From Spirogloea muscicola (taxonomy: Eukaryota > Streptophyta > Zygnematophyceae > Spirogloeales > Spirogloeaceae): DNA of 30,813 nucleotides. The stretch spans positions 161,571-192,383 of the forward strand of contig WELB01000038.1 in NCBI GenBank assembly GCA_009602725.1. The letters are read 5' to 3'. The notes under the pieces are model-generated. The model searched no databases. It was given only the letters and a program-made list of their open reading frames with translations, and had not been told where the DNA came from. Numbering within the stretch: the stretch's first letter is position 1; every line of letters starts with the position of its first letter. A program made the position numbers and the translations under genes. Positions 160 to 30,813 of the stretch are shown here, piece after piece.

Positions 160-290
160 CCGTCTAAAGTCTACCGTATGCGCCTGGCCATCTCGCTGCA
201 GGCGGTCTATGGCCCGCGCGCTACACCTTCGTGCCGGCCGCGCACTCGCTGCTGCCTCTGGCTCTGGCCAGGAAAATTTCGTGTATTTGA
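160..290 (+). pseudogene. Retroelement ORF 3' fragment (copy a)
   Basis: The plus strand encodes a short segment containing VYRMRLAISLQ, followed by Arg/Pro-rich residues. It aligns by eye with VFRMRLSVSRQ in the minus-strand copy at 29590-29940 and VFRMRLAVSFQ at 1806-2126. The frame drifts after about 25 codons. Downstream on the same strand come the tail motif (about 415-435) and hairpin (about 525-545), the same order as in copy d. I infer a 5'-truncated, decayed copy of a retroelement-like ORF; the family is not certain. Confidence 0.45.
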
Positions 291-1444
291 AACAAACATA
301 GGCCAATGGCCAAGTACAAAGGCAAGCAAGCACATCTAAATATCTACATAACCTACAGCAGGTTGACCCGCTCAGGGGACCCCCTTCCACGCGCCTAGCC
401 TCTCTGATCTGCGGCTGCTTAGCAGGGGTTACTGAGTGATTCGTAGCAGCTATGCTTCGTTTTGTGCTTGCTTTCCTTAGCGCTTCCCCTGGCCCCCTAC
501 TCGTACTTTGTTCATTCTTTCTAGGGCTGGCTTGTCCAGCCCCTCTCCTCAATGGGCGAGCTCGTTCTTCTAAAGCCAGAAAGGCCCGATACGACCGCCA
601 AGGTCCGAAGAGCAGCTTAGGGGGAAACGGCGTGCATCGAGTGGCCCGGGGCCGCGCTGGCCCAAGGCGAGAGGAACTCATTTAGTACCTTGCTTTCTGC
701 TCCATCCCGCTCCTCCAGACTTTGTCCAAGCCCTCTCACAGCCACCAGTCACTCTGGCCGCGCTTTCTCTCGAGAGGAACTAGAAGCTCGCTTCCAGATC
801 TTCCAAAGGAGAGATACCAATGCTCTGCCCAAGGCAAGGCCGCGGGCAGAAGCCCATCAAAGAAGACACGCTTTCAGAATTCCTATTGAAGACGGCTGCG
901 ACAGCACGATCGTCCAGCCAGCCCGCCCAAGTGGATCTCCGAAGGGGGCCCAAGAAGGCGCCCAAAACAGAATCCGCACAGCTATGCCCAAAAGCGCCTG
1001 GAAACTCGCACTGTGGAGGTGGCCAGGGGGAGCCGAAGAGGCGGCGGCAGAGGGCAGTGAGAGAGTTCTCCGAATCTGCGGCTGCTTAGCAGGGGTTACT
1101 GAGTGTCTCGTAGCTGCTTTGTTTCTGTTTCTTAGCGCTTCCCCTGGCCCCCTTCTCGTACTCTGTTCATTCCTTTGTCCATTCTTTTTTGGCTGGCTTC
1201 TGCCAGCCCCTCTCTTCTATGGGCGAGCTCATCTTCTCCGAATGGCGGGCTTGCGGCCGAGCACGCGCCCCGGGTATCGCGCAGACTCAGTGGCCGCCCC
1301 AGCCCCGTGGCTCCCAGGTCGGCGGGCAGCGGGCAGGGCGAAGAGAAGAAACAGCTCATCCAATGTAAGGCAAAATGGCTGTGAGAGGCCAGCCCAAAGG
1401 AGTGTACAAAGACTGGAAAGAGAGGGGGCTCGCCCATTGAGGAT

Positions 1445-1778
1445 AGAAGGCTCGCCCATAGAGAAAGAGGGGCTGGCAAAGCCAGCCCAAAAAGAATGGA
1501 CAATGTCCAAAGCCGAAGAATGAGATGCCGAGGAAGGACTCCTCTAAGAAAGACAAGCACACAAGAAGAAACAAAGCAGCTACTAATCACTCTACTCTAC
1601 CAATCACGACAACATACTAGGGAAGCTCAGTACCCGCGAGTGAGCAACATCAGGTCCGAGTAGTAGATTGGTAGAGTAGAGGAGTCCTTCCTCGGCATCT
1701 CATTCTTCGGCTTTGGACATTGTCCATTCTTTTTGGGCTGGCTTTGCCAGCCCCTCTTTCTCTATGGGCGAGCCTTCT
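1445..1778. repeat. Perfect 102-bp inverted repeat (foldback element)
   Basis: The left arm 1445-1546 and right arm 1677-1778 are exact reverse complements over all 102 bases, separated by a 130-bp spacer (1547-1676). Each arm contains its own 7-bp-stem hairpin, GGCTGGCAAAGCCAGCC. The spacer also carries a shorter nested inverted pair: CTCTACTCTACCAATC near 1590-1605 and its complement near 1667-1682. I see no transposase frame. The absence of any mismatch between arms indicates recent formation or gene conversion. The same arm sequence occurs twice at 30572-30809 and once at 21457-21545. Confidence 0.9.
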
Positions 1779-1805
1779 TTTTGAGTAGCTCGAGGCAGGG
1801 AAGGA

Positions 1806-2126
1806 GGCACTCCGCCGAGACCCGGAGGCAGCGGCCAGAGCGCGTCCTGCGCGCGTGTGGACAGCGTGGGCAAGGGATCGCTGGAACGATACCGCCAAGC
1901 GCATACGAAAGACCTGGGCGAGCGACCCGGCGGCGTTGAAGCCGCCCCCGGGCGGACCCGACCGCCGATCAATAGCCTGACGAGCAAGCCGCTGGAGGAG
2001 ATCCAGCCAGCGGCTGCCGAAGGCCCCGTGAACATCTATCGCCAGGGCCGCGAACTCATCACCGACCGGGTGATCGGCATATTTTTTCTCTTTTGCCCGG
2101 GCTGCCAGGCCCTGCAAACGACGCCG
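1806..2126 (-). pseudogene. Retroelement ORF 3' fragment (copy b)
   Basis: The minus-strand frame reads ...KYADHP, then FAALAIDVHGAFGSRWLDLL, then AQVFRMRLAVSFQRSLAHA, and ends in GRALAAASGSR. The same ordered blocks appear in copies at 26614-26880 and 29590-29940, so this is a repeated protein-coding segment rather than chance. Position at the 3' end of repeats and 5' truncation suggest the C-terminal end of a non-LTR retrotransposon polyprotein. No reverse-transcriptase catalytic motif is present in the window, so that family call is inference. Confidence 0.5.
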
Positions 2127-2350
2127 ACCTGGTGGGGTTGCCAGAGTCGTAGCTGTCATTTGTCACCACATCAGCGATGATGCGGGGAATGCGGGGATAG
2201 GGGCTGGGAAAGCCAGGCCCAAAAAGAATGAACAAAGTACGAGAAGGGGGGGGGCCAGAGGAAGCGCTGAGAAAACAAAGCACACAAAGAAAGAAAGCAG
2301 CTGCAAATCACTCAGTAACCCCTGCTAAGCAGCCGCAAATCAGAGAGGCT

Positions 2351-3292
2351 AGGGTCCTGAAAGTGGGTCCCCTGGCCCAAACGGCGGAAGGAGGAAAAAG
2401 CAGGATCCTATTCTCCGTGACTTTTTCTGCAAGCGGAAAAACACTCCCCTGCCCGACCCCCCCCGGGCGGGCAGGTTTTGCGGGCCGGCCCCGCCCCCGT
2501 GCAGCGGCGTCCCGGGGCCGTGGGCATCTTGATGGCAGTCACCGCCGCCCGCCGCGTGGCAGAAAGCTGACCGGAAGATTCCCAACGATCCGACGGCCAC
2601 ATGCCCCTGCTGCACGCTCGTCTGCCATCGTCGCCCGCACCCCTCCCTGCGGCTCGTGCCTGCCGGCGGGTGACGTCACCGTCGGCCTTGCGCCGCGAGG
2701 CAGCCCGGCGCCCTCCGGCTGTGCCGGATTTTCCATATGGTAGATCTGCCCGGAAGGAGGGGTGCCACGTGGCGGCAGCGAAGGAGGTGAGGAAGTCGGC
2801 TGGCTCCCGGAGAACCGGGTCGGTCGCCGTGGAGCCGGGCGGTGACGTGGCAGCTGACGACCAGCCGCCCCTGGCCGGCCTCCCCCCCCTCAAAACAATT
2901 CATAATTTCAATCTCTGTATGCAACTTGGCTGGCTTGAAGTAACGCTTTTCTTATATCGTCAACCATTTTCCTCTCCGCCCAACCTGCTTCGCGGAGCCG
3001 CCATGGCGGCGCCCCAGGCCAGCCACAGCTCGGGGCTCCCCCGCCCAAGCCCAGCCACTGCCGTCTCCGGGAGCGCCGCGCCTTCTTGCAGGCCGGGAGC
3101 CCACTGAGCGGCTGGCCTCGCGGAGTCCTGCTAAACCCCGTTGGCGGCCCGTCTAGCCTCGCCCTGCAAAGCCCGCGACGGGGCCTGCACTCGGCCGCCT
3201 TCACTCTCAGGCTGACGGCTGAGTACTTACGGCGCTTGAGCTCGTCGGCGTGATGGCTCGCCGTCCGTAGTCCCGAGGCCCGCAAGTGGGCA
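2351..3292. other. GC-rich 5' flank of the RING-H2 gene; no gene seen
   Basis: This stretch is GC-rich, with several overlapping open frames on both strands that match no family I know and lack coherent codon usage. It probably holds the promoter and 5' untranslated region of the gene starting at 3335. No TATA-like element can be placed with confidence. Confidence 0.4.
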
Positions 3293-3334: not shown

Positions 3335-4483
3335 ATGGCGGCCGGGCCGGCGCCGTCTGGCTCCGACGACGGCGGCGGCGGCAGCGCGGCCGCCTCGCCT
3401 CCTCACTTCAGCTCCGCCGTGGCGCTCGTCATCCTCGCCGTCGTGCTCTTCTTCGTCGCCCTCCTCGCCATCAAGTTCCACAGCGTCTGCTGCCACGTGG
3501 TTCTGAGCCACCGGGGCGAAGCGCCTCCGCTGCCGGCGCCGCTGCAAAGCAGAGCGGCGCCGCAGCACTTGCTGCTCGCTGCGGGGGCGGCGCCGCCTGT
3601 ACCCTCCGCCTGGCAGCCGCCGCCTCGGAGCCGGGGCTTGAGCGCCGAGGCGGTGGCGCTGCTGCCGAGCTACACGTTCTCCAGCATCGCCAGCGCCGAT
3701 GGTGGCTGCGCGACCGAGGCCGGCGGCCGGGAGTGCGCTGTGTGCCTGGCCGAGTATGTGCATGGCGACACGCTACGGCGGCTGCCAGCATGCAACCACG
3801 CCTTCCACGCCGTATGCGTCGACCCCTGGCTGGGAGACCACCAGTCCTGTCCAGTCTGCCGGTGAGCGAGGCGCTTATTCTTGATTTTCCCGTTGTCGAG
3901 CGGCAAGTACAACATTGTCGAGTACAACATTAAGGGGATTATGTTATGGACTGGCCACTGCTTTCTGGCTGCTCTGCTTCTCAATGTCAGCAAGCACTCT
4001 TTCATTGGTCTATCTCGGTGGCACTGCTGCAGGAAGTCCGTGTTGGCTGGCGAGCTCGCAGCCGGGCCTGAGAAGACGGGAGACCATCTGCCGCGGCTTC
4101 CCCCGGCAGAGAACCCCGCTGATGACAGCAGTGGGGCCGCTGGAGATGGCGCAGCCCCTGCAGGGGGCGTGCTGCCACTTGTGGAGGTTGTTGTGCAGGT
4201 CCCACCCTCAACCGTGGCAGGGACGACTGCGACAGCCCCGTCGGCGCAGGCAACGGTTGGTACAGCATCGCCTGCTGGCTTTTGGGGCACCATAGCCGGT
4301 AGGGCCGGATTCGATGACCGCCGCTCGCGGCGCTGGGACTTCGGTGGGATCGACGTCGGAAGCCTCTCCTCGCCAGTACCTAGCAGCAGGAGCCCACCAG
4401 GGCCAGTGCAGGAGCCTGCACCGCCGCTCCTTCGGCGGTTCTTGTCACGGCTTCGACAAACACCTGCTGCCTCGGAAACGTAG
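3335..4483 (+). CDS. ATL-type RING-H2 E3 ubiquitin ligase, membrane-anchored
   Basis: There are two exons, 3335-3861 and 4033-4483, giving about 325 residues. The intron (GTGAGC...GCTGCAG) splits the Arg codon directly after the RING, and the phases match exactly. The start is GCCATGG. Residues 26-46 form a hydrophobic membrane helix. The GLD-like motif [13 protein letters not shown] follows near residue 101. The RING-H2 lies at 134-175 with C-x2-C-x15-C-x-H-x2-H-x2-C-x10-C-x2-C spacing and the ATL-typical Trp (DPWL). This order of helix, GLD and RING-H2 defines the ATL family, in which the RING recruits an E2 enzyme to ubiquitinate targets. The C-terminal 150 residues are low-complexity (Pro, Ala, Gly), and no substrate is predictable. 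Family placement is firm; the specific orthologue is not. Confidence 0.88.
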
Positions 4484-6304
4484 ACGGGCCGGTTGCCGTC
4501 AAACCATAGCTACAATAGGAAGTCAAGCTCCACATGCGAGCTCTGAAGGTAGCACCACCCATGCGCTAAGATAGGCGCCCTCAGCGCTGCCAGATAAAGT
4601 GGAATGGCTTGTTGCAAGGCCCGTCAGGAGCTGCAGATGCCAAGCTCTACCAGCCCCCAGGTTGCCCTTCTGCTTCCATGATCTCCAAATCGTGGTCCCT
4701 CAGAAGCACTCCGCCTATGCAGACCCATGCTTTTAGGTTGCTCAGGTCGAAGGTGCAAAGCAGACTCTTAGCCGGTACCATATTCTTGGAGGTGATGTTT
4801 GGTGCTCAACAAAACAGGCTCGGTCCAGGGTGAAAGTAATTTGCCTCTCGACCAGGTCAAGCCTCTGGTCTGTCATTTGAGGTGGTGTAGCTTGCATCAT
4901 GATTGTTGATAGATCATGACGCGATCAGCGAGAAAGGATTGGCTGCCATCCACCTTCAACAGTTAGCAGCCCCTGCCCGATGTATATCCTTCCTCTGTTC
5001 ACTATCCTACGATGGCTCCCTCGCACCAACCCGCCCTCCTTGCTCCAAGCAGCCACGCACATGGGTCCAAATCTTGAAACAGGCTTTCCCCCTTCTCTAA
5101 ACAGCCCAATCCAGTTGTCTATTCTGGCACTCTATCTGACCAGGATGAACATGCATAATCATACATCTCATGTTGCTTCTTTAATAGAGGAGCTGGTGCA
5201 ATTTGGAGCCCCACAAACATTACCCCTCACAAGAAAATGATGAGGAAGTTGAAGTGAAGGGTTATCAAATTACGGGCGTCAAAGGCAGCTTCGTAGGCCT
5301 TGTCAGTACTGATTCATAGCCAGGACCACATAGCCAACAGAACGGGATCGGAATGTAGCAAACAGAGCAAAGCTTGACTCAGCGATTGGTCTGCACACGT
5401 CGAATTATCTGATACAATAAACTCCACCGCCTCATAGCTCATCGGCTTTGTTAGCGTTGGCGACCAGGAGCGCGATGGTACTTAAGAATCTGTTCCAAGG
5501 TGTGTGGTGGCCTCCGCGACTTTTAGGTCACCCTCGTTGTGTCCACTCCACGTTAGCTCAAGCGGCCATCATTGTACCCGAGGCTTTCCTACTCCTCACA
5601 AGCATTCCGTTGAGAGCTGGCGAGGGCGGAGAAGGTGCTTTGCGAAAGTAGAGGATGCTACACAGACCCACCAGAGGAGGCGAGCAGTCAAGGGAAGTGC
5701 CGCTATTCATGTCAGCTAGGAGGACAGTGTGATGGACAAGATCTAAAGTTCTCACATATTGTCATCTGCAATATGAAGGAGTCGTGAAGTGTATGAACGT
5801 CATAAGCGATACCTACTCGCCCCAGCAAGGACACTTGGAGCCTGCAAATGCTATGGGCAGGCTTGCACGCCCCAGCAAAATATTTTCATGAAGTCTGGAT
5901 TCTTTCTGAGCACGCTTGCAGCCTCGTAGCAACTTGCATCAGGTACTCGACAGGGGAGGTCTAGACCGAGTAGCCCCTTCCACTTCTCCTCCCTGCTGCT
6001 CGTTGGCTGACCAGGCAACTTGCATTCCAGGCCATGCGGTTGGGGGCATACCACTCTCCTCTGGAGAAAGAGCGTGAGCTGAGGAGAAACAGCGTAAACT
6101 GAGTGAGAGAGGGCCAGATAGACTGAAGTACATCTACATACGCAGGCCGACTGCTGTTATGGCGGCTCGCTAGTGACCGGTGGCTCAGGCTTAGAGGTCG
6201 CAAATCAATGCCCGCTACCGGAGTGCAGGATTCCAAGCTCGCTTGCCACCTGCTAGAGCTCGCCCAGCTATCAGATGAAGAGCATGGGCCTGAGCTGGCT
6301 ACAG
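4484..6304. other. Intergenic stretch; no gene seen
   Basis: This holds the 3' flank of the RING-H2 gene and further intergenic DNA. Open frames here are short and match nothing recognisable. Base composition falls toward AT compared with the flanking exons. I see no RNA gene. Confidence 0.5.
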
Positions 6305-6562
6305 ACGTTCACCTACCTTTCCATTCCTTTGGGCTTGCCTCTCCCAGCCACCAGTCAATCTGGCCGCGCTTAGTTCACATACGCTGTGGCGCAAGGGGAG
6401 TGCTGTCGCGCACCACCACGATGGGCATACCCAAGGCTGACAATCTCTCCGTCAAGCGGGGTGCGGCATCGAGGACGCGTGCGCTCATACAAAGGAAGCG
6501 CGGCCAGATTGACTGGTTGGCTGGGAAAGTCAGCCAGATGCATACAGGTAGGTGTTCATGAC
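6305..6562. repeat. Imperfect foldback with about 65-bp arms
   Basis: The left arm (about 6305-6371) and right arm (about 6493-6562) are imperfect reverse complements. They share CACCTACCT at the outer ends, a degenerate GGCT...CAGCC hairpin, and the core CCAGTCAATCTGGCCGCGCT at the inner ends. The roughly 120-bp interior is unique in this window. The inner core also occurs, lightly diverged, at 742-770 (+) and 26350-26378 (-), so this belongs to the same dispersed repeat superfamily. Confidence 0.7.
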
Positions 6563-6750: not shown

Positions 6751-8420
6751 ATGGCCGCCATGGCGGCCGCCTCCGCCGCCCGGGCCCTGGGCTCGCCGCC
6801 GCCGCCACCGCCGCCACANGCCGCTGCTCCGCGGGCCCCGCGCCGTCGCGACGGCGGTCCCCGCGCCGCGAGCCGCTGCCGGGCGGCAGCTGCCCTGCCA
6901 GACCAGCCGACTGCGACCGCCGTCGATCGTGGACCGGCGGCGGCGGCGGCAGCTGCAGGAGCAGTCCTTCCTCTGCCAAGCGGCCGGCGCCATGGCTTCC
7001 ATGGCGGCCTCGTCCGAAGGGCCTGGCGGCATAGGCCTCAGCGTGGGCGCCGGCGAGCCCGCCTCCGCCGGCTCCACGGCCGGCCTCCGGCCTCCGGCGG
7101 CGGCCACGCTGGCCCAGAAGGCGCGCGCCGCCGCCTTCTACTTCACCACCTTCGCGCTGGCCGTGCCGCTCTTCGCCGTCATGCTGGCGCTGCACCCGCT
7201 CGTCGTGCTGCTGGACAGGCACCGCCGCCGCGCCCACCACGCCGTCAACGCCGTGTGGGCCAAGTGCACGACGCGGCCGTTCTACGCCACGGCGCTGGAG
7301 GGCGCGGAGCACCTGCCGGCGCCCGACGCGGCCGCCGTGTACGTCGCCAACCACCAAAGCTTCCTGGACATCTACACGCTCTTCCAGCTCGGCCGCCCCT
7401 TCAAGTTCATCTCCAAGACCTCCAACTTCCTCATCCCCATCGTCGGCTGGTCCATGTGGCTCACCGGCCACGTCCCGCTCAAGCGCCTCGACAGGCGGAG
7501 CCAGATGGTGGGTCTCGGACGGCGTCGCCATGGCGGCCGTGGTGCCTTTGCATTGTCCTCTGCTTTTCTGACTCAATGGCCTCGATTCTGACAGGGGCAC
7601 TACCCAAGTAGTGAAGACTTGTGATACATGAGTTAGTACTGCACCATCTCATTGATCTGGCAGCAGGTAGTTGAGGATTCAATGGGCTTGCTCTTATCAA
7701 AAGAGTAAAGGCAGAGCTGTTCACTAATCTGGGTTGACAGGGAGCTCGCATCAACGTTGGACACCAATGCAGGAGTGCCTGAAGCTCTGCCTGGACCTCC
7801 TGAAGCGCGGCGTGCCGGTGCTCTTCTTCCCCGAGGGCACGCGCACCAAAGACGGCAAGATGGACGACTTCAAGGTCAGCAACGCACGATGGCCACATTG
7901 TTTCTTTCTTGCTCCCCCTCCACTCTCACTGTCTTGCAATCCCTCTCCTGCTCCTCACTCTGTGCCTCAGTCCATCCTCTGTCACCCTCCTCTTCCTGGG
8001 ACTCCTGCTATCCTCTTCTTTATCTTCTGCATGTCAGACTTATCATGAATGCACCTCTAAGTACGTTGTTGTAGTCGCCACATGGTTGTGGCTTGCCACT
8101 CAGTGGCAGCTCCACGTCAATGTCAGTCACGTCGTTCGTCAAGCTCATGGTCATCTTGCCGCCGCTGTGTTGCACGTGTGGTGACTCCACAGAAGGGCGC
8201 CTTCAGCCTGGCGGCCAAGACAGGGGTGCCGGTCGTGCCGATTGCACTTATTGGGACAGGCGACCTGATGCCCAATGAGATGGAGAACAGCCTGCGGCCC
8301 GGCGCCGTGAAGATAGTGATACACCCACCCATTATTGGTGCCAATGCTGACGCCCTCTGCTCACAAACAAGGGAGGTCATTGCTGCCACACTGCGCCGCC
8401 ATGGCATGGGCGTGCGGTAG
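6751..8420 (+). CDS. LPAT1: Plastid 1-acyl-sn-glycerol-3-phosphate acyltransferase (LPAT)
   Basis: There are three exons: 6751-7507, 7773-7874 and 8193-8420. Splice phases are all 0, with donors GTGGGT and GTCAGC. The enzyme acylates lysophosphatidate at sn-2 to make phosphatidic acid. Visible motifs are NHQSFLD (the H-x4-D catalytic box), FKFISKTS, FFPEGTR and TGVPVVPI, all in the order and spacing of plastidial LPAT1/ATS2. A hydrophobic segment precedes the H-x4-D box. The start ATG at 6751 sits in CCCACCATGG. Its frame joins the conserved core only if the N at 6819 is not a real base; then an Ala/Pro/Arg-rich N-terminus of transit-peptide type results, about 361 residues in all. Otherwise the first in-frame ATG is 6929. 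The core assignment is firm; the N-terminus depends on the N. Confidence 0.92.
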
Positions 8421-9563: not shown

Positions 9564-12284
9564 TCATGTGACAAGACCTGCACTTGGAGTAAATGACGCA
9601 GAGGGAATGCGGCCACTGGGTGACGGCGGTGGCCTGGGGGTCGAGGGGCCGGATGGCAGTGCAGGTGGGGCGCTGCGCATGGACGCGTTGCGCAGGTCGG
9701 CATTGAGGTCCTCGACAGTGAAGCCAGCCATGTCGTGCAGGCCCTGGATGGGCCGAAGTGCCTCCACCACGTCAGCCATGCGCGGCCGCTGCTTGGCACG
9801 CTTGTTCAGGCACAGCTTGATGAGAGCTGCTGCCATCTGCGCACCTCTCACGCTGTAACGTCCCCCGAGCTCCGGGTCCATGATTCTGCGCCACGAGCAT
9901 GCAAGCGAGCCAGCCCAACTCTCAGCAAGCAAGAGCCGGCCCAAGGTGCAGGTGCAGATGGTGCACTGGCGTAGTAAGCGCTGCAGCAGTTTGCAAGGAC
10001 ACTGGCGATGAGGCAACGGAGAGCAAAGAGATAAGGAGAGAGGAGGAAAGAGGAAGGGAGGACGGAGGTGGGAGGAAAGGCACGACCGACCGATAGAGCT
10101 TCTTGGGATTCTCAAGGTATGGCTCGGCCCACTCGACGAGGTTGTGCTCCTCTTTCGGGCGGCTCTTATCCATGGCCGTTCGGCCCGTGAGCAGCTCCAG
10201 CAGCACGACCCCGAAGCTCCATACGTCACTCGCCGTTGTTAGGTGGCCGGTCATCACGTACTCGGGTGCCGCGTACCCCACTGTGCCCACAATCTGCAAG
10301 GATGGGTTGGCTCCCTCAGCCCAACAGCTTGTAGCAGTGGCTCGACATAGAAGAATTGGAGCCAAAAATGTATTTGATAAGAAATTTGGGAGGAAGACAT
10401 GGGGAGAGGGGAAAGGGGTCAGAGGCTTGCCCGGGTTGTGACGTGCGATTTGTCTCCCTCAGGGCCGCTGCGGGCGAGGCCGAAATCGGACAGCCGCGCC
10501 TCCCACCGACGATCCAGCAGAATGTTAGAAGTCTTGAAGTCGCGGTAGATGACCTGAGGCACCCGCACCGAACCCAGCATGGCCAGTATCAGGCGCAGCC
10601 CATGACTTGGGTCCAACAGCCTTTGCGTTAAGAGGCCTCAAAAGGGCAGTGATAGGGAGACCAAGTAGAGAGGGAACTTGACTGCATTTCTAAGCACACC
10701 ACAAGTTGCAGACGAAACCAACAAGAATCCGAAACTTTGCAGCAAAATTCAAGTAAATAGTGGCAAGAGAGAGAGAGAGAGGTTTTTAATCATTAACAGT
10801 CATCATTCCTAATTGCCTCTTGAAGGAAGAGAGTCAGTGCATGCACCGGAGCCTCGGCCTCGTCATGCAGGTAGGTGAGGCCGTTGGCTGCGCCCAGCGC
10901 GATGCGCATCCGCTGGCTCCAGGCGAGCGGCGCGTCGCCAGGCGCACGGCGGAAGAGCGCGTGCTCCAGGCTGCGGTTGGGCATGAACTCGTACACCAGC
11001 AGGCGCTGCTCGCCGTCCGCGCAGAAGCCGATCAGGTTCACGAGATTCGGGTGGTGCAGGTGGCCCAAGAAGCTGACCTCCGTCGTCCACTCCTTCTCCC
11101 CCTGCATCACCCTCATCCTAACTTGCATTGTCAGGAAGCACAGAGGGAGGACCATGGAGGGAGAAGGGGGAAGGAGGGAGGGAGGACGGCTAGAGTGGGA
11201 GATGTGGGTGTGCTTGACTGGGGGCCTTGCCTGGAAGCCGGCGGTGTTGAGGACCTTGACGGCGACGGGCTCAGAGTGGCCATCGGCGCCATTGATGAAG
11301 CCCATGTACACGGACCCGAAGCCACCGCCGCCGAGGTAGCCTGTGGCATCGAAACCGCGCGTGATCACCTCCAGCTCCGCCAGGCTGAACCCGCGGAGTC
11401 CCGCCGGCTTGCGCCGCGACGAGCGTGCCACTACTGGCGGCGCGGCTGCCGCAGCATCCTGTTGCGGCGGCTCGGCGACCGATCCCGATGAGAGCGCCGA
11501 GCGGTTGCGCTGCAGCGACCGCTTCTGCGCAGCGTCCGTGGCGGCCGCCGACGACGAGTGCGCCCGCCCGGCCGACGCCGACCGCGACAGGGTCTTGAGC
11601 GCGGGCAGCAGCTCCGCAGACGCCGGGGAGTGGGCGGAGACCGCCGAGGACGGCGCCGGCAGTGGCATGGGCGTGCCGCCGAAGGCCGATGTGGGCGCGA
11701 CTGCCGCGCTGCCGCCAGGTGGTGGAGGCGGNNNNNNNNNNNNNNNNNNNNNNNNNNNNNNNNNNNNNNNNNNNNNNNNNNNNNNNNNNNNNNNNNNNNN
11801 NNNNNNNNNNNNNNNNNNNNNNNNNNNNNNNNNNNNNNNNNNNNNNNNNNNNNNNNNNNNNNNNNNNNNNNNNNNNNNNNNNNNNNNNNNNNNNNNNNNN
11901 NNNNNNNNNNNNNNNNNNNNNNNNNNNNNNNNNNNNNNNNNNNNNNNNNNNNNNNNNNNNNNNNNNNNNNNNNNNNNNNNNNNNNNNNNNNNNNNNNNNN
12001 NNNNNNNNNNNNNNNNNNNNNNNNNNNNNNNNNNNNNNNNNNNNNNNNNNNNNNNNNNNNNNNNNNNNNNNNNNNNNNNNNNNNNNNNNNNNNNGAGAGA
12101 GAGGTGGGGTGGGGGTGGTGGGGGGAGGTTGGGGGGGGGGGGCCGCGGAGTCAGGGCGTCAACGCGGGGCGACGACACGCCGGCGAAACGACAATTAGTC
12201 TCCCCTGGTCCGTCGTTGTCGGCAGCCTCTGCGTTGACGGGCCCCGTCAGCCCAGCGGCCGTTATCCCCCCCCCCGTTCCCCAT
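9564..12284 (-). CDS. Receptor-like cytoplasmic kinase, subfamily VII (PBS1/RIPK-like)
   Basis: Minus-strand exons are: up to the gap-11231, 11101-10847, 10553-10431, 10293-10091 and 9885-9564; 11732-12094 is assembly gap. The joined protein has a Ser/Ala-rich linker, then the kinase: [13 protein letters not shown], glycine loop [14 protein letters not shown] lysine, KEWTTEV (helix C Glu), [14 protein letters not shown] catalytic loop, SDFGLAR, and [10 protein letters not shown]. The [16 protein letters not shown] block and a DPELGGRYS segment follow. VIYRDFK and the G-F-Q-G-E-K-E-W spacing are typical of RLCK-VII kinases, which relay signals from surface receptors at the plasma membrane. No ectodomain is seen. 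Two introns have GC donors (11102-11230 and 10294-10430). The N-terminus is unresolved: the open frame before the gap lacks an ATG, but a Met-Gly start at 12284 fits if one homopolymer base is wrong. Confidence 0.88.
11732..12094. other. Assembly gap (363 N)
   Basis: A run of 363 undetermined bases interrupts the kinase gene. Both sides are low-complexity: a GGTGG-type proline-codon repeat on the left, and GAGAGAGA plus G-rich runs on the right. The true length is unknown. Confidence 0.95.
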
Positions 12285-12594: not shown

Positions 12595-15500
12595 ATGGCG
12601 GCGCAGCTGAGTGAGCCCTCTTACCCGTCAAGGGCAGGGTCGCTCTTTGCGACCATTTTTGATGATCTTTCCTAGGCTCATGTTGGGGTCTGGAACTGTG
12701 CGCTACTTGACATCCTGATAATTTATTGGACGAAGTCGGAGGGGATGATCAACTCCATAGCCGAATCCAAGTGCAGCGCTATCAATGAGTAAGCTGACGC
12801 TTCATGTCATACGTCAGGGGATGGGAGGTTGACTGTGGTGGAGCTGGCATCCGGGGACTCGTACATAATCTCCAGCTCCCCACGAGAGAAAGATACAAAG
12901 CTCATCGCTGTGGATCCCACCACGGGGGCGCTAGATCACTGTGGTCGCAGGGGACTCAGTGTGTTTCCAACGGAGCATGATTGCCTCGAACACATCACGG
13001 CCGCTGGTCGATTCCCCATCAAGTCTGCAGTGCAAGGCAAGGCTCTGATCGGTTATGCTGCACTTGGAGCCGTTGGCGCTGTACTATTGGCCACCAAGAC
13101 TAAATTGTCGATTCCAAGCCTGCCTGGAGGCGATGCTGTTCACACAGTCACAGGTACTGTCCACAGGGTCATGTGGTCCACAGAAGCGCTTCTAGCGTGT
13201 GTTTGACGAGTCAAATTGACCACTCAGTAGGTAAAGGGTCCATAAGGCCTGCTGCAAAGTCAAGGAAACACGAATTTGCCTCGCCTCTTTATGCTTTGAG
13301 TCCTGAAGGTTTTTGGGGGGCGCTCATCATCTGCGTGCTTGCCACCACTGCAGAAAGCCAGTGGGTCAGGGCTCGTCTGCGAATGCCACACGTCCAGACA
13401 AAGGCAGAGCTGAAGGCTGCCGAAGACCTCATGAGTATATTAATAGACACTGTCCACTTTTATTGTGAGACCAGGGACATAACAAGACCGTTCCCGAGTG
13501 ACAACAACGTGGATGATCCTGATGAGGAGTTTGTTTGGAACGAATGGCTGTCTTCTCCTTTCAAAGACATCGGCTTGAAGCACCACTGTGTTGTTCTTCT
13601 CCAGGTATGACGGTCTCCTCTCCCTCAATTCCAAGTTGGCATCTCCATTAAGCACATGTACATATTGAGATCATTGGTGCCTGCTCAAACAGCTGATATA
13701 AGTCTTGCTTCCTGCATAAATTAGGACTTGCCAACTCTTGAATAGGATACTATGCATCTGCACAGCTATGTGGTGCTCTTAGAAGAGAATTTGAGAGTTG
13801 GCAGTATTGCAGTACTCAATAAGTTCACGAAACTTTGAGATGACAAGACTGTCCCGCAGCCTGTCAGGGCAATGCTTTTGCACATTCACATTCTGGGGCC
13901 CTTTACAATTTTGGTGATGATAATGCGAAACATTGCCACTGAATGATCATGTTAAACTCCACAGGGTATGGCTGAGAGCCGCACTTTCACAGACGCTAGT
14001 GACAAGCTACTGGCCGTTGCACTGGTGGCGAGGAGGAGTCGGATGCATCCAGGCACAAGATATTTGGCCAGGGGCCTAAATGCTGCGGCTAGCACTGGTA
14101 CTCAAGTGCGATATAACACTCAACTATCAGTGTCAGGCATTTCCAATGGAGCTGTAATAGCACCTAGTGGGCCTGCTTGTTTGGCTAACACCTCAGTGCT
14201 CTTACCTTGACAAAAGAGTGCTGAGGGCACGTCAGAATGCTTACAATGCAGGCAATGAGGTGGAGTGCGAGCAGCTTGTCTGGCAGGCAGAAGCTGGAGG
14301 GCTTTCAGCAGGTAGATCTTCGTTTTGCACCTATGTGTGGCGGCGAGGGACTGTTCCAATATGGTGGGGTGCGGAGATAAAGACTTATGTCAGTGAAGCA
14401 GAGATCTTCGTGTCCGACAAACCCTACGAAGGAGCTGCTACATACTACAAGCGACTGCAGCTACGATATGGTGGCCGAAGCCAAGAGCAAAGCGGAGCGG
14501 ATGCTGCACAGACCCCTATATATGTGCTCAACCTGCTTAGGAACGGTCCAGGGAAGCCAGAATCAGTGCTGACAGAGCACCTCCACCACAGCATTCGACA
14601 GATCGTCACGAACAAGGAGCTGCCGAGGGCTGAGCTGACAGCATTGAACTTCGATTGGCATGCGAGCACCAAGGCTGTGGGAGAAGCAAGGACGGTTGAG
14701 GACCTCTGGCGAGTACTGAAGGAGCCAACTAAGCGCGTGGCCTTCACAAGTGGAGAGTACCTTCCCATCACACTTAAGGACCATGGTGTGATTGCAGGGG
14801 CATCGAATGGTCAGGTCGATGGGCAGTATACACTCAGCACATTGCAAACAGGAGTGATACGCTACAATTGCGCAGATTCTTTAGATAGGACAAATGCTGC
14901 CAGCTTCTTTGGAGGCGTGCAGGTTCTTGCAGAGCAGTGCTCAAGACTAGGCAGCTCGTTGATGTCCATGTCCAGCAGAAACGCAGGACTCAACTTGGGT
15001 GCAGCTTCTCTAGGTGTGAATGATGACTCAGTAAGTGGTCGGACAAGTGCTTCCGCTACTTCCTCTTCGGCGCAAACTAGTGAGCCACCTCCTCTGCCAC
15101 CAGGTTGGGAGATGCGGAAGCACGCATTTGGCCAGTATTTCTATATCGATCACATCAGACGTGTGACGACTTGGACTCGTCCATTGGAGCTGGTGGTCAC
15201 AACCGCGCCTGCAAGTTTGGTCAGCCGCCGGGATGATTCAGACAAGCATAATGCAGATGGCAAAAGACGAGCAAGTGAGCCAGCAGAGGGGTGGAGCTCG
15301 TTGGTTGATGAGGCAGAGCCATGGGCTTGGTTTGACTTGTCAGTGGAGGCTCTCAAAGCGAGGGCTCTTGCAGCTCCTATTGCAGCTCTAGCGGAGCTTT
15401 TCCTCATAGCAGGCGACATTCATGCTCTTCTGTACACGGGTTCCAAAGCCATGCACTCTCACATCATTCAGATTTTCAGTGAAGACCCTGCCAAACTAAG

Positions 15501-18500
15501 GCGAGCCAATGCTGCGAGCAATGTTGCTATCACGCTGCAACGTCGCTACCTCAACATGGTAGTGGACTCCTCTAGACAGAGGCAGCTGGAGGCGTTTTTG
15601 GGGTTAGCCCTCCCAAAAATCTTTCCTTCCCTTGCTCTACGACCCCTGGAGGTGCGTGAAAATCTCATGTCCATGACAAGTCCACTGTGTAAGCTGCTCA
15701 CGCCGCTGTGCTGTGATTTAGCTGACCATAATTGAAAAGCTATGGTCTCGGAAGATGAGATTATCCACTTTTTGGGTGTTATGGTCACTCCTGATTTGCA
15801 TATTCTTGTCTTCCTGGTTGTAAGGTCCTTAGTCGTGCTTATGCATGTCTGCTCAAGCCAGTACCAGCCCACTTCCAAGACATGCATCCTCTTGAGGCCC
15901 TGTTGAGCCCGAGAACAAACAGCATCACCTGGGTAAGGTCCGTTGACCCCTTCTGGAACCACAGTGCCGTCTCGGCGTCCACGTATCCAATCTTGCAATT
16001 GTCTTGACTTGTGTGAAGTACGTGCTGTTAGCTTGGCCATTGTAGATGTCCAAAGCGTTGAGGCAGAAAGCAGTAGAGTGGAAGAGCAGGCTATGGCCAG
16101 ATATTTGAGTGTGGCAAAAAAAACAGGGGCTGAGTATGCAGGCAATACAATGCGGTGATGTTTTCAATGAGGTCCAAGCAAAACCTGCTCCGGTACGACT
16201 ATCAGCTGGTGCTTATCAGACAGCTGGTATATGTACCACTGGTTGAACCAATTATTGCCTCGTCTGTGCAGGTCTGTCCTGGTGCAGCAGACATAGTAGA
16301 GGTTTACATATATCTCAGAGAGCCCTGTCACATCAGTGCGCTTATCCTGACGTCAGCGCATGGTGTCGACGATGGTTCAACACCGTCCTGCATGGATGTG
16401 CGTGCTGGCCAACACTTGGATGACATGCAGCTGCTTCTAGAGGTGAGGAGGACTGATTCTCTCTCTTTTACATTGTGAAAGCAGGTTTCAGCAGATTTGC
16501 AATCAGGGCAATGTCAATTTCTCGAAGATTGTTACATGGGCCTTAATGTCATTCACCATGAATTTGTCAGTTGCTGTACTGGTGGCGCTGCACATGTATA
16601 GGCTAACCAACCTCAGCAATCTACCCTCCCATTCTACCACAGGGGGCAAGCATACCAAGGTGTCCAGCAGGGACAGCTCTGCTATACAATCTGGCAGGAA
16701 CTGCTAGTGGACTAGCATCTGGGAGATGGCATTCAAATAACAAGCCCTTTATGCTGTACAATTATGAGCAAACAGACAGACAGTATGAATTCTTCACCCG
16801 TGTAGTTGCCGTCACCTTCTACCCAGCGGTTCCTGGGGTACCAATGACTCTTGGACAGGTTGGCTACCTTGGCTGCAGAAATTTTTTGTCATTAGCATTT
16901 CTCCATTTTGCATGCATGGTTACAACGTCACGCCAGCATTCTGACGAGTCTTGTTTGCCTTGCAGTTGGAGGTGCTTGGTGCATCCTTACTTGGGTTTCG
17001 ATTTTCACCACCATCACAAGCCTCTCAACGGCTTCCTTGTAGTTCGGGTGGTGCAGCACAAAGTCAAGGCTCTGCAGATGCATCAAGGAGCAGCACGTAC
17101 TCAGCAAAGCCTGAACAGCCAGTGACCTTTGACCTGCTTTCGGGGGATCCTCTCGGCGTGCAAGATGCTGTCAGTAGAGCTCCTCTTGATGAGAGTAGCA
17201 TAGTCAACCCAGCAGGTTTGAGGAAAGTTCCACAGAGAAATGCACCTCTGCCTCCTGCAACAGCAGATTTTGAACATTCTGCCAGCAGGAGGTCTTCAGC
17301 ACTTGGAATGTACCAAAACCTAGTCCACAAGATCTGCAGCCCACAGAGGGTGAGCTAGCCATCACTTCTTCACAGGGATAAATAGCTCTAATGTCATAGT
17401 TGCACCAAGAGTAGATTAGAAAGGTTCTGTTTCAGCATGAGCTTGTCACTAGTTACAGGATGCCTGTCTGCCACCTCTGTTCTTGCCTCTGTTCTGCCAC
17501 CTTCTTGTTTTCAACATGCACTTTGGTAGCTAGCCACTTTCAATCTGCACTTTCATTGTTTTTACTTTTCATTGTGGGCTGCAGGATGAGGTCATGAGCT
17601 TCAGTTTGGCGCTGAGACTCGATGCTGCAAGGCTCAGGCTTGGCTTGTCATCCCTTGAGAGGGAGCAAGTCCTTCTCAAACTTGGAAAAGACCCCCACTC
17701 CCTGGATCCAAACCATCTGCTAAGCACCGCGCAGGAGCTCCTCCAATTACACAGAGCAGCTGCACAGTTGTCGCGACTGGCCGGTGAAGAGGGTCAGACA
17801 GTTGCCGACCACGGTGACCTCCTGGGTAGGTGCAACCGAGAGGACTGTGAGGTGGGATCTGGCAAGGGGGGTAGACATGATCCACTAGCAGACGTGGATG
17901 ACTCAGAGTATGTGCAAGCAAGACGTGGAAATTCTGTGCCCCTTCTTACATGCGAAACCTGTAAAAGGATGGCTTGTGGAGCCTGTGTTGCTGGTACAGC
18001 TGGCACACAGCTAGTGGAGAGGCTTGCCATGGTTGCGCCTGCCTCTCATGCATCCACCTCAAAGGCACATACTGTGAAGTCCATGCTTTGCTGGGACTGC
18101 TGCCCTTCTTTGGTCAGGAATGCATTGCTACTGAATCAGGTCCGGGCCTTGGAAGCGAGTAGACAAGCCTGCCAGCTCTTAGATAGTGCTGCTGCAGCCC
18201 TGTCGATGCTCCGCAACTCCGGTGTCTGGAATAGGGGGCCGGAAGGAGGCTTGCCAGGAGTTCCCAAGGAATTGGTCTCACTTGCTGAACACCCATATGG
18301 GGCTTTGCTATTCGCTGTAAGTAGTGTTATGCATAACACGTTTGCTTTTATTGCAAGGCAACCACAACATACATGCTATGCAATTTGCACCAGGACAAAC
18401 AGTAGAATAGACTGGGAAGATCATTTTCTGGTTGGCTTGCAGAAATATCTTGTCATCTTCTTGAATCAGCTGGCAGTTGCTCTACTGTATCTGTACTCTT

Positions 18501-21110: not shown

Positions 21111-21690
21111 AAGAACAAGTAGCTCTTATAAAGTGGGCGAGGGCTGTGAAAAGCCAGCCACAGAAGAATGAGCAAGGTCAGAAGGAACAGCTCTGCCAGG
21201 GGCCATCCTTGACCATCTTTCGTGGTACTTACATAGCTCTGTGATTAAGCAACTGTCGGCGACCTTGTCCATCCTTTTCCGAGCTCGCCTCTCACAGCCG
21301 GCTGCTCAACATGGTTGAATGCTCCGTGGCCACCTGATTCATTATGTGCTTTCGAGCTTTCTCTGGTCCCTTCGATCCTTGTCCATCCTTTATTCTGGGC
21401 CGGCCTCTCACAGTCACCGCCCTCTCCTGGAAGCGTCTTCCCCTCTCACAGCCCTCCCTCGGCTTCTCATTCTTCGGCTTTGGACATTGTTCATTCTTTT
21501 TGGGCTGGCTTTGCCAGCCCCTCTTTCTCTATGGGCGAGCCTTCTTCTCACAGCCCTCCCTGTTGGAAAGCTGCTGCTCTGCCAGAGTGGGCGAGGTTTT
21601 TCAGATAAATGATTCGACCGACAGCTGTCACAATGCAAGCCAATGGCAGTGGGGAGGCCAGCCCAAAGATATCAAGAAAAGAAACAAAGG
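21111..21690. repeat. Cluster of dispersed hairpin repeats
   Basis: There are minus-oriented hairpin cores near 21138-21155 and 21655-21668. Plus-oriented degenerate copies occur near 21260-21305 and 21375-21460 (with 'ccctctcacagccctccct' repeated). A full single arm of the 102-bp inverted-repeat unit follows at 21457-21545. No protein is encoded. Confidence 0.7.
21457..21545 (+). repeat. Solo arm of the 102-bp inverted-repeat unit
   Basis: This matches the right arm at 1677-1778 from 'cctcggc' through 'gggcgagcc' with very few differences (for example attgTtcatt in place of attgCcatt, and ggcTtctc for ggcAtctc). No reverse-complement partner lies nearby, unlike the two palindromic copies. 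Confidence 0.85.
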
Positions 21691-24424: not shown

Positions 24425-25946
24425 CTGCTCCGCCCAAGCGGGTAGCTCCAGCATTCCGTGACTTGCGTCTGCAATAAAGAAGTGTGCCCACTGCCAACAC
24501 TGCAGCCACAACGATAACAGCAATCACAATCCCCGCAATGCCTCCACCAGACAAGCTTGATCCGCCGCCACCATCACCTGACGCATCAGGACCCAGCAGA
24601 AAGTGATGAGAACTTTGTAAGTGCCATGGGCTTTCTCCAAACATCAGGACAATTCAACCACTACCAATATGGGATGAAGCGTATACTAAACCCTCCTTCC
24701 CATCACGCTCTTGAAATGCCCGGGCGTTTTGTGACAAGCGCCATGATTCGTCAATTTCGTCCCTGACTTCTATGTGAGCGTGTTATGTTTGCTACAGATC
24801 AGCAGATTAGACATCAAAAGGCTGTCACCCCAACAAAAGCCGTACTTTGGGCATAGCACATATACCTTTCGCGGATGATGACATTGGCAGGATCTCAAAG
24901 AGCTCGAGGCCGTTGATGATGGGGCCGGCAATGCCACCTGAGCTTTGGAGCGAGACATTGAAGAGGAGCTTCGAGGTCGCTGTGCCCGCCGGCTCTGAAA
25001 CGTTCAGGATGAAGGTCTGGTTCACAGGCACAAACGCCTGCTTCCCAGCGACGCTGTAAACGTCGAACCCGCTCCTCAACACCTCCCCATTGATGACCAA
25101 GTCGAAGACGCGGTCTCCCGCCGTGACAGTCGAGTTGGTCTCGGCAAAGTAGAGGACGAGGAGCCACTGGTCGCGCACGTCCTGAGCGACGATATAGTAG
25201 ACCAGGTCGATGGCGCCACCGGCGGGGGCCTGCTGTGCCGTCTGGTACAGCATCGCGGGGGGGTAGTTGATGGGCAGGCCGGCGCCGCTCACGTTCCTGG
25301 CGGTGGTCAGCGGCGCCGACCCGCCGGCGGCGGGCGTGCTGTCCGCCGACCAGTACCGGAAGCCCAGGTCGGCCGGCTCGCGCCCGAATGCCGGCCCGCC
25401 GAGGTTAATGCGCACGGCGTTGGAGAGGACGTAGCCGTGGCCGAGCCCGATGGCCGCCGTGCTGTACGCGTCGCTCTCCGCCGGCAGGACCTGCAGGCTG
25501 TTGACGAGCGCGTCGCCGACCACCGGCCGGAGGCAGAATTGAACAGCGGCGCTGTCATCCACGAAGACGTAGAAGTCGGTGTAGTACGCTTCGCTGGACA
25601 GCTCCGCCGCGTTGGGCTCCCGGAAGTCGACGCGCTCCACCGGCAGGCCCTGGACGAGCACGTCGAACGCCACGTCCGGCGGGCCGGTGCTGTCGAAGAG
25701 CCCGATGGCGAAGGAGGCGCGCACGAGGTAGCGCCCGGCGGGCACTGGCACGGCGTAGCAGCCGCGGGCGCCGCCGGGGAAGGTCCGGAAGGTGGCGTCG
25801 ACGGGCGCGACGTTCTGGGCGTAGGCGTTGGGGTTGGAGGCGTTGACGCCGCCGTCGAAGTAGGCGTCCGCCTGCCACGCCACGCCGCCGCCGAGGTCCG
25901 CGCCCAGCGTCCGGTTGCTGCCGCAGTCGATCCGGATAGGGTCTGC

Positions 25947-26210: not shown

Positions 26211-26613
26211 GGACGTAGGAGGTGCTTGACCGGCGATCGGGAATGCCAGCCAAGTTGCCCTTGAACGAACGACGAGAGAGCCTTCGTGCATACCTGTGGG
26301 TTGGCCTTCCACGGCCTCTTAGTGAACAGCCGCTGGTCAGATTAAATTAGAGAAAGCGCGGCCAGATTGACTGGTGGCGAGAAGTCGCGCGCGGTGCGCA
26401 TGTGATTGAAATGGAGGCCAATTCTAGCCTTACAAATGTCCTGGTAACTGGGTAATGAGCTGGCTAAGGGGTACACTAATATCCCCGAGTAAGCACATGC
26501 ATATCTGACAAGCTATACTGAGGAAAGGACAAGCTATACTGTGGCTGGGAAAGGCCAGCCCAAAGGAATGGACAAGGTCAGATTTATTGGACTCCGGGTA
26601 GCAGGTCTCTCGT

Positions 26614-26880
26614 CTATGGCCAGAGGCTGCAGGCAGGGCGCGCGACCAGCACGCAGATGCAACGCGTGTGCCATTGACCGCTGCACTGACAGGCGCATGC
26701 GAGACACCTGGGCGAGGAGAGCCTGCCGCGTTGACATCGGCCTGCTCCCTTTGGTGTCGTCGGAACACTGCGATGCACACTGGCCGGTGCTGGAGCTTGA
26801 AGCCACCGAGCACCGAGCGCCCTGTGAACGTCGATGGCAAGGGGGAAGAACTCGTCCTCCCGCAGACGGTTTTTAAGCAA
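26614..26880 (-). pseudogene. Retroelement ORF 3' fragment (copy c), frameshifted
   Basis: The minus strand reads REDEFFPLAIDVHRALGARW in one frame, and then QVSRMRLSVQRSMAHAL in another. The matching blocks in copy d (29590-29940) are in a single frame, so this copy carries at least one frameshift. A hairpin-repeat tail (about 26535-26580) follows on the same strand. Confidence 0.5.
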
Positions 26881-27439: not shown

Positions 27440-27600
27440 CACTTCTCCAACATTCTTGTGGTTGGCTAACTTCGCAACATAGCCGGTCTTGAGAGGCACC
27501 TGGCCGAGAGACCCGGCGGCAATGAAGGCGGGCAGCTCACCTTGCTGTCTCTGACAAAGATATATGGCCGACCGTGCAAGCCGCTGCAGAAGGTCAGCCA
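27440..27600 (-). pseudogene. Retroelement ORF 3' fragment (copy e)
   Basis: The minus strand reads DLLQRLARSAIYL...FIAAGSLGQV, which aligns by eye with DLLQRLARQAIDR...FNAAGSLAQV of copy b (1806-2126). It then diverges (VPLKTGYVAKLANHKN) with no FRMRL block, so it is truncated or belongs to a related subfamily. Confidence 0.4.
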
Positions 27601-28181
27601 CCGACTGCCAAACGAGAGCAGAGAGCAGTTGTTATTCGACTTGTAGACGATGAGAAGATGGCAGAGGGAGAAGCTCTTCCAGAGCTCTCTGGCTCCTTCA
27701 GACCTGGTTATCCTTATTGAGCTGGACGTTCTCAGCTCTCGCCTCTTTTCCGCTGCAGCCTCTGGCTACAGACAGGAAATCTACCCCAGAGATTACTTTC
27801 TCTGACCTGCGGCTGCTCAACAGGTGATATTGAGCACCAGTGACCACTTGAGTCGCAGTGTGCTTTAGCGCTTTTCTGGCCCCTTCGAACATGTACATTC
27901 ATCTTTCTGGGCTTGGCCAATCACAGCCATCGCCCCTCTACTAGCGAAGTCTTTCTTCTCCGCCCTCTAGAACACAATCTGCAAATGCTCACTAGAGTTT
28001 CTTGAGCGCCCACTCGCAGGAGCCACAGAGAGTACATTCAAGGTTTTTGCGCCTTCCCCGGCCCCCTCAGGCTTTCTTCAGTCCTTTGGGCTGGCCTCTC
28101 ACAGCACTGTTTAATGTAAATTAGCTGTTCTTCTCCAGAGAGCTGCTCCTTCGGAAGAGAGCTCGTGCACAAGGGGGCGAG

Positions 28182-28985: not shown

Positions 28986-29399
28986 AGGGAACGAGGTCCA
29001 TATGCAGTTGGAGGCAGTGCAAGTGGTAGAGCAAAGGAGTAGGTTTCCGGCTGGCTTTTTGCAGCCCCCGCTTTCTATGCAGCCTCTAGCTCTCTACTGA
29101 AAGAGTCTTTCTTCTCGTGAAGAAGAAGGGCGCGGAGCGCATGAAATGAAAGGGAGGCCAATTCAAGCCCATACAGTATTCATGCAGAGCCTAGAGCAAA
29201 CAAGGCTACATACTACGGAGACCTAAACTAAGGTGCCTAAGGTGACATTAGTACCCACGGGTGAGCACAAACAAATTCGACAAGCTAAGTTGGGGAGCTG
29301 GAGCAGCGCCACGAAAGCCGGAGGCCTGAATTAGAGCGCGCCCTGCACGTTGATGAAGAGCCAATGCTTGCGAGCGCTGCAGACCAGGCGAGAGCCGCA

Positions 29400-29580
29400 T
29401 CATGAAGAAGAAGAGAGAAAGACGCTTCCAGAGGGGGTGGTGGCTGGGAGAGGCCAGCCCTGAATAATAGAATGAACAAAGTCCGAAGGGGCCAGGGAAA
29501 GCGCTAAAGCTAGCACACATGGGAATCAAGCAGCTACGAAACACCCTGTAACCCCTGCTAAGCAGCCGCATGTCAGAGAA
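29400..29580 (-). repeat. 3' tail of retroelement copy d
   Basis: Reading the minus strand away from the ORF fragment, the order is: tail motif (29547-29570, CTGCTTAGCAGGGGTTAC), a 'tttagcgctttccctggccccttcggactttgttcattct' segment, then the hairpin GGCTGG...CCAGCC (about 29442-29459) and 'ctctggaagcgtctttctctc'. The same order follows copy a on the plus strand at about 411-575. Confidence 0.65.
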
Positions 29581-29589
29581 GCTGGTCTC

Positions 29590-29940
29590 CTGGTAGCGTG
29601 TCCCTGGCCAGGGCCAGAGGCTGCAGCCAAGGCACGACCAGCACGCAGTGCAGCGCGCGAGCCATAGATCTCTGCCGTGAGACGGACAGGCGCATGCGGA
29701 ACACCTGCGCAAGCAAGCATGCTGCATGGAAATCCACGCGCTCCCCATGATACCGGCGGGAGATAGCGTGACGCGAGAGCTGGTTGAGCAGCTCGAGCCA
29801 TCGAGCGCCCAACGCACCGTGAGTGTCGATGGCGAGCGGAAAAAACTCGTCTTCCCGTGGGTGGTCGGCGTACTTCAAATCCTTGGCCCTGGCGGCGCAG
29901 GCCACCGTATACCCAGCCTTGGAGCCACATTGCGTGGGAA
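29590..29940 (-). pseudogene. Retroelement ORF 3' fragment (copy d), longest
   Basis: This is the best-preserved copy. The minus strand reads GNVLLPTQCGSKAGYTVA, then KDLKYADHP, FFPLAIDTHGALGARWLELL and AQVFRMRLSVSRQRSMARAL before losing homology. No start codon context, catalytic motif or complete domain is present. Four copies with the same ordered blocks support a once-coding mobile element; I think the C-terminal end of a non-LTR retrotransposon polyprotein is likeliest. Confidence 0.5.
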
Positions 29941-30571: not shown

Positions 30572-30809
30572 TAGAGGAGTCCTTCCTCGGCATCTCATTC
30601 TTCGGCTTTGGACATTGTCCATTCTTTTTGGGCTGGCTTTGCCAGCCCCTCTTTCTCTATGGGCGAGCCTTCTCCTTCTCTATGGGCGCGCACTTTCTTC
30701 CAGTAGAAGAAGGTTCGCCCATAGAGAAAGAGGGGCTGGCAAAGCCAGCCCAAAAAGAATGGACAATGTCCAAAGCCGAAGAATGAGATGCCGAGGAAGG
30801 ACTCCTCTA
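30572..30809. repeat. 102-bp inverted repeat, second palindromic copy
   Basis: The arms are 30572-30673 and 30708-30809, each 102 bp, with a 34-bp spacer. They differ from each other at one base (30714 T). Arm sequence is the same as at 1445-1778, but here the opposite ends face the centre: the 'gccttct' ends are inside, whereas at 1445-1778 the 'ctcta' ends are inside. The flank 30507-30571 matches the reverse complement of the spacer of the first copy (about 1595-1662). Confidence 0.9.
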
Positions 30810-30813
30810 CTCT

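Follow-up and report, generated by a model that had tools for sequence, protein, structure and literature searches.

The locus and its genes

The window, the whole stretch of DNA that we analysed, is 30,813 nucleotides long and lies on one contig of the Spirogloea muscicola assembly (C38:161571-192383; 153-Mb genome, 471 contigs). Between two palindromes near its ends it carries several frames with known protein domains, a combination suggestive of a streptophyte:

3335-3865 (+), RING-H2 finger protein
6929-7591 (+), acyltransferase
10793-11500 (-), kinase fragment, receptor-kinase-like
14167-15735 (+), frame with a SacI homology (Syja_N) domain and a WW domain, which we take to resemble plant SAC9-type phosphatases
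24900-25550 (-), malectin-like domain, receptor-kinase-like

A run of N (363 bases, 11732-12094) lies near the kinase-like frame.

A repeated arm of 102 bp

When the window is compared with itself, the arms of the first palindrome (1445-1546 and 1677-1778) are reverse complements of each other over 102 of 102 bases. The arm at 1445-1546 matches the reverse complement of 30572-30673 equally well (102/102). The right-hand arm of the second palindrome, 30708-30809, differs at arm base 7 (C to T), and the mismatch is confined to that arm. The arms are separated by a linker of 130 bp in the first palindrome and of 34 bp in the second, and 30506-30576 is complementary to 1590-1660 at 99%. The initial annotation had described these identities, the single mismatch and the homology of the 30507-30571 flank to the 130-bp linker, and on all three points our comparison agrees with it. 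Elsewhere in the window there is a weak inverted self-match of about 245 bp at 65% identity (6310-6554), possibly two older element ends.

The whole-assembly search for the arm that had been proposed there gave at least 45 matches. At least 40 of these are perfect across all 102 bases, and the 40 lie on 32 of the 471 contigs. These counts are lower bounds, as 40 of 1,109 candidates were scored; three of the 40 perfect matches fall in the window. In the 153-Mb genome the exact 32-base 3' end, CCAGCCCCTCTTTCTCTATGGGCGAGCCTTCT, is present 161 times (81 forward, 80 reverse); the reversed sequence, used as a control, has 0 occurrences. The repetition of the arm is far above chance.

One sharp end and one ragged end

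We compared the stretches around the listed copies of the arm, 44 rows that represent 42 distinct copies (L039 repeats two window copies). All 42 share a single sharp boundary at AGAAGGCTCGCCC, with two variants (one copy starts CGAAGG and one AGAAGGTTC), and beyond this boundary the outer flanks differ. In many copies the outer flank is itself the end of another element. On the opposite side the copies run into a common sequence and stop at different points. The 44 copies share between 61 bp and at least 3,059 bp with the family A element L049; in the two longest the match reaches the limit of the compared sequence, and some others stop at a gap or contig end. Their identity to L049 is 95.7-99.6%. 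The copies were gathered by their match to the arm, and 3'-truncated copies are therefore invisible to this sample.

A sharp end together with a ragged end indicates 5'-truncated LINE copies, in which the sharp end corresponds to the 3' end of the RNA. We are highly confident that a young R2-like LINE has the 102-bp arm as its 3' terminus and that the palindromes are nested or neighbouring 5'-truncated copies of it. This reading draws on direct observation of the anatomy, the copy number, the common 3' end, an excess of target-site duplications and the coding capacity of the element. The earlier impression that no known transposon end is present has to be abandoned, for the arm is one, namely a LINE 3' end. 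It does not fit a SINE either, a short element with a fixed 5' end and a pol III promoter, as there is no common 5' end and the longer copies reach a LINE open reading frame.

An alternating chain is not supported

From the two palindromes it had been deduced that the unit belongs to a longer chain, alternating in orientation with linkers of 34 and 130 bp. The arrangement of neighbouring ends does not support this. An ungapped scan of the examined loci that allowed up to 5 mismatches gave 48 near-identical 3' ends. They include seven neighbour pairs within 1 kb, four inverted with the ends outward, one inverted with the ends facing and two direct, at spacings of 35 to 596 bp. Of the 161 exact ends, 100 were compared as well, and among these five pairs within 1 kb are direct and one, the window's own, is inverted. 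This mixture of orientations and spacings matches the expectation for independent insertions, and ends that lie close together could stem from insertion into stretches already rich in elements.

The same data bear on whether the unit could be a palindromic or terminal-inverted-repeat element (MITE-like or foldback) that alternates with fixed linkers. That one window holds two perfect or near-perfect inverted pairs would suit such an element. Three observations argue otherwise and make it extremely improbable. First, with seven pairs among 48 ends, most 3' ends lack a partner within 1 kb; single ends predominate and a fixed, bounded unit is absent. Second, the copies extend for variable lengths into a LINE coding region, and truncation is graded on one side only. 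Third, close pairs are both direct and inverted and their spacing varies.

The first palindrome

If the arm is a LINE terminus, the first palindrome and its surroundings can be divided into the following features (elA and elB give positions in the family A and family B elements):

1445-2188 (-), host family A copy, 5'-truncated, 3' end at 1445 (blastn to L049: elA 3917-4339 at 2188-1783, elA 4334-4504 at 1663-1445)
1445-1546 (-), left arm, the host copy's 3' terminal 102 bp
1547-1589 (-), 43-bp insertion, internal piece of a B-like LINE 3' region, with CTCTA at 1542-1546 and 1590-1594
1658-1663, target-site duplication GAGTAG, left copy
1664-1782 (+), inverted insertion of 119 bp, a second 5'-truncated family A copy, 114/119 identical to the L049 3' end
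1677-1778 (+), right arm, the inserted copy's 3' terminal 102 bp
1783-1788, target-site duplication GAGTAG, right copy
2195-2377 (-), family B-like LINE 3' region ending in ...CCCCTATCC, putative outermost host (elB 4113-4277 at 2377-2197)

The host copy starts at position 3,917 of the L049 element, near 2188. When both inserts and one duplicate of each are taken out, 561 of the 571 aligned bases of the joined host are identical to L049; neither junction has a gap, and deletions of 11 and 6 bases lie elsewhere. The best explanation for the first palindrome is a 119-bp truncated copy that inserted in reverse inside an older truncated copy.

One could also argue that the inverted arm arose within a single LINE insertion, by twin priming or 5' inversion. 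Inverted pieces do occur in LINE insertions of other hosts. Twin priming, however, inverts the 5' part, whereas here both arms bear a complete 3' terminus, and the inner copy has its own GAGTAG duplication within the outer copy. We give this origin practically no credence and retain the reading as two separate insertions.

The 43 bases at 1547-1589 also sit within a longer B-like copy in L032, and positions 1-46 of the 130-bp linker match L032 4097-4142 at 100%. This piece could be a fragment captured in the repair of a double-strand break and not a product of retrotransposition. It comes without the 3' end of its parent element, and in copies that are not interrupted the neighbouring CTCTA is a tandem motif (CTCTACTCTACC); both points speak for capture. 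Retrotransposition is favoured by the one extra host CTCTA that accompanies the piece, a 5-bp duplication, and by the run of pyrimidines (GTCTTTCT) at which it ends in the parent's sense, an ending that internal priming could produce. Capture during repair is a serious candidate that falls somewhat short of being our preferred origin.

The family A host copy in turn seems to be nested in a family B 3' end, judging from flanks read by eye. The B-like 3' end seems to resume at about 1421-1444 (ATCCTCAATGGGCGAGC on the minus strand), and GGAT is repeated at 1441-1444 and 2195-2198, which would be a 4-bp duplication accompanied by some filler bases. If so, four events, nested or adjacent, fall within one kilobase, and the joined alignment backs two of them.

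The second palindrome and other related copies

The second palindrome lies at the right-hand end of the window:

30506-30673 (+), family A copy, 168 bp, 5'-truncated (elA 4337-4504, 98.2%)
30674-30706, linker remnant like another element's 3' end (TTCTCTATGGGCGCGCACTTTCTTCC) plus AGTAG, read by eye (the 34-bp linker 30674-30707 minus its last base)
30707-30813 (-), family A copy in inverse orientation, running into the assembly gap (elA 4399-4505, 97.2%)

Its best explanation is two short copies of opposite orientation beside an older element end. The junctions are untidy; the joined host is identical at 65 of 81 positions to a reference that is a hand-typed composite end. Directly after 30813 follow 4,041 N (L039 814-4854), and the sequence past this gap looks, by eye, like coding sequence.

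Palindromes may also be hairpin artefacts of assembly. The last arm of the window directly abuts the 4,041 N, and N make up 13.6% of the bases across the 38 loci L009-L046. Yet the first palindrome sits within uninterrupted sequence, its duplications are precise and its empty site is clean, and the last arm has one different base and different flanks. We consider an artefact very improbable. For the first palindrome the concern is answered by the comparison of filled and empty site; for the second it may still apply on the side that meets the gap.

Related copies, most of them decayed, are found elsewhere in the window:

167-569 (+), family B-like 3' region in two pieces (elB 4015-4119 and 4116-4300, 82-88%)
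1067-1228 (+), family B-like 3' region (elB 4144-4292, 85.8%)
21450-21546 (+), short family A copy (95.9%)
26575-26866 (-), decayed relative, C-terminal coding part (elB 3860-4153, 64.6%)
27498-27612 (-), decayed family A-like coding fragment (elA 4095-4210, 72.4%)
27751-27913 (+), decayed family B-like 3' fragment (elB 4094-4259, 67.8%)
29250-29379 (-), decayed relative, end of coding region (elA 4239-4368, 63.6%)
29416-29929 (-), decayed family B-like copy including the endonuclease C-terminus (elB 3792-4299, 76.9%)

Coding capacity of the parent element

The arm was said to lack coding capacity. This is true of the arm itself and untrue of its parent element, which is able to encode a protein of 1,358 aa. 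The long copies L044 and L046 extend into a reverse transcriptase frame (RVT_1, 1.3e-12 for the L044 piece). A genome search with a 199-aa piece of the reverse transcriptase gave at least 150 matches (150 of 1,332 candidates scored). Among the matches listed, six loci are 97% identical to the piece and have open frames of 1,386 to 1,433 codons. In a second subfamily, whose reverse transcriptase is 75% identical, at least 18 matches have the same score and every open frame exceeds 1,100 codons, which suggests that this subfamily, including L050, represents a separate recent burst. With a 163-aa piece of the endonuclease, at least 151 matches were found (150 of 9,754 candidates scored).

Family A (L049) has a single frame of 1,358 aa from the chosen ATG and family B (L050) one of 1,299 aa; the two proteins are 67% identical. 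Both frames match RVT_1 above the curated Pfam cut-off (E = 2.3e-13 in L049 and 8.1e-16 in L050). The same Pfam scan of the two frames gave no match to an APE domain (Exo_endo_phos) or to RNase H at E up to 1, nor was a Myb motif among the matches of this general scan at that threshold. A two-sequence profile of L049 and L050 retrieved 12 PDB sequences at E up to 10. The top three are R2 retrotransposon proteins (9nl3, 9nl2 and 9dou; E = 4.3e-7 to 6.2e-7), and these are the only significant matches; the remaining nine have E of 0.38 or worse, and eight of these nine are zinc-finger chains. The reverse transcriptase piece alone had no match in PDB (phmmer). The RVT_1 scores and the R2 matches identify a LINE-type reverse transcriptase.

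The C-terminus of both families carries, read by eye, a conserved R-x-DLV...DVV followed by KEKKY or KELKY. A LINE endonuclease core with KX2KY is described in passages of PMC5678591. R-x-DLV, DVV and KEKKY/KELKY agree with this published core, and the proteins thus appear to end in a restriction-like endonuclease (RLE) with an acidic core and KX2KY. Ahead of the endonuclease motif a C,C,H,C set is conserved with the spacing CX1CX12HX3C, unlike the CX2-3CX7-8HX4C that the same passages give for the CCHC knuckle before the LINE endonuclease. At the N-terminus two conserved cysteine-histidine fingers are seen by eye; they score below the Pfam cut-offs and have no significant match to R2 or other PDB fingers. 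The best explanation, as far as sequence allows, is an element whose single open reading frame would encode a protein with cysteine-histidine fingers at the N-terminus, the reverse transcriptase in the middle and the restriction-like endonuclease at the C-terminus.

Target duplications and the 3' hairpin

The initial annotation had also suggested tabulating target-site duplications. In a looser test, the mean longest match between flanks is 5.4, compared with 4.7 for mismatched flanks. A position-specific test covered 36 of the 44 copies (8 were left out for N or for their location at an end), and the offsets that it allowed were chosen after the junctions had been inspected. Thirteen of the 36 copies have duplications of at least 6 bp, where 3.3 are expected with re-paired flanks (0 of 5,000 permutations), and 15 have at least 5 bp, where 7.9 are expected (0.3% of permutations). 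Shorter duplications are at about chance level: 4 bp in nine of the 36 copies, 3 bp in seven, and none of 3 bp or more in five. The window's host copy is among these five; the script placed its 5' junction at the 43-bp insert. The excess at 6 bp or more and the identity of the 44 copies to L049 bear out the recent mobility that had been proposed. Conversion, offered as the other possibility, is not needed to account for the identity among young copies.

The 3' end of the RNA is predicted to fold into a stable hairpin, GGGCUGGC-UUU-GCCAGCCC; downstream of it come AUGGGCGAGCC and a short tail of pyrimidines. Compared with 200 shuffles, the window copy folds with a z-score of -3.7 and L049 with one of -3.1, no shuffle being as good in either case; L050 has -2.6, with 2 of 200 shuffles as good. 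Relatives at the examined loci have the stem with differing loops, in a collection whose pattern itself demanded the stem letters. For the same reason we dropped covariation as support for the hairpin: the 48 diverse 3' regions, kept from 142 and then aligned, were collected with a pattern that fixed the stem letters. Stem-loops at the 3' end are described for stringent-type LINEs in passages of PMC3747384, and by analogy we infer that the hairpin may have a role in recognition.

We infer the following course of events. The enzyme would nick the target DNA and prime reverse transcription from the 3' end of the RNA (target-primed reverse transcription). Synthesis would often halt early, giving a constant 3' end and a variable loss at the 5' end, and the target site, where this is visible, would be duplicated over some 4 to 10 bp. 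In the first palindrome, a 119-bp truncated copy would have entered an older truncated copy in reverse and duplicated GAGTAG, with a separate 43-bp insertion nearby. In the second, two short copies would have inserted close to each other, in opposite orientations, beside an older element end.

Significance and comparison with known systems

The palindromes are mostly ordinary; what stands out, for such a host, is the element type. The mechanism and the type have both been described before. The table of plant and green-algal LINEs in passages of PMC3747384 has L1, RTE, RTEX and RandI, and the Utopia lineage is reported, in the abstract of the Utopia paper, from Amoebozoa, SAR and Opisthokonta. 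Our literature search, limited to titles, abstracts and passages of open papers and hence no proof of absence, found no LINE of the green lineage that encodes RLE only. Such an element in the green lineage may therefore be new.

We tentatively suggest that a large, mobile superfamily of R2-like, RLE-only LINEs expanded in this streptophyte, lost strict site specificity and tends to insert where its relatives have their pyrimidine-rich 3' ends, so that minute copies with a terminal hairpin pile up in nested clusters; on present evidence we lean against so broad a claim more than towards it. If it were true, RLE-only LINEs would extend to a supergroup for which passages of the literature record none, and there would be material for studying the loss of site specificity in R2-like enzymes. 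A streptophyte family of this kind would close a gap in their known distribution. With its empty-site comparison, the odd palindrome also becomes a clear example of nested retrotransposition, and it shows that LINE tails truncated at the 5' end to a very short length (about 100 bp) can mimic mysterious palindromic units.

Several known systems resemble the element in part. Dualen/RandI of green algae are likewise LINEs with RLE in a green-lineage host, with 3' repeats other than poly(A) that are shared with SINEs (passages of PMC3747384). Dualen encodes both APE and RLE (passages of PMC4640811), and our element does not belong to Dualen/RandI, as the two frames have no APE-type match at E up to 1. 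Stringent-type LINE 3' ends, as described in passages of PMC3747384, share the hairpin near the 3' end and the short tail that is not poly(A).

By profile match and motifs, the element is R2-like, an RLE-encoding LINE that would belong to the R2 group in a broad sense. The R2 group (R2Bm and R2Tg; PDB 9nl3, 9nl2 and 9dou) provides the closest relatives of the family A/B profile among solved structures. It has the same layout of one open reading frame, a central reverse transcriptase and a C-terminal endonuclease with KX2KY, and 5'-truncated copies are frequent there too (passages of PMC7650587). Unlike R2, family A is dispersed over many contigs and the spacing of its zinc knuckle differs, and the R2 hosts named in the literature surveyed are animals, in contrast to the present host. 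The element is not R2 proper, which occupies one site in 28S rDNA, since at least 40 perfect copies lie on 32 contigs with differing flanks. R2-like elements without site specificity are reported from the cockroach Blattella germanica (passages of PMC7650587), and the HERO clade has many non-specific families (passages of PMC4640811). Both combine the RLE LINE architecture with the lack of a strict target, as our element appears to do, in a different host lineage; the likeness concerns architecture.
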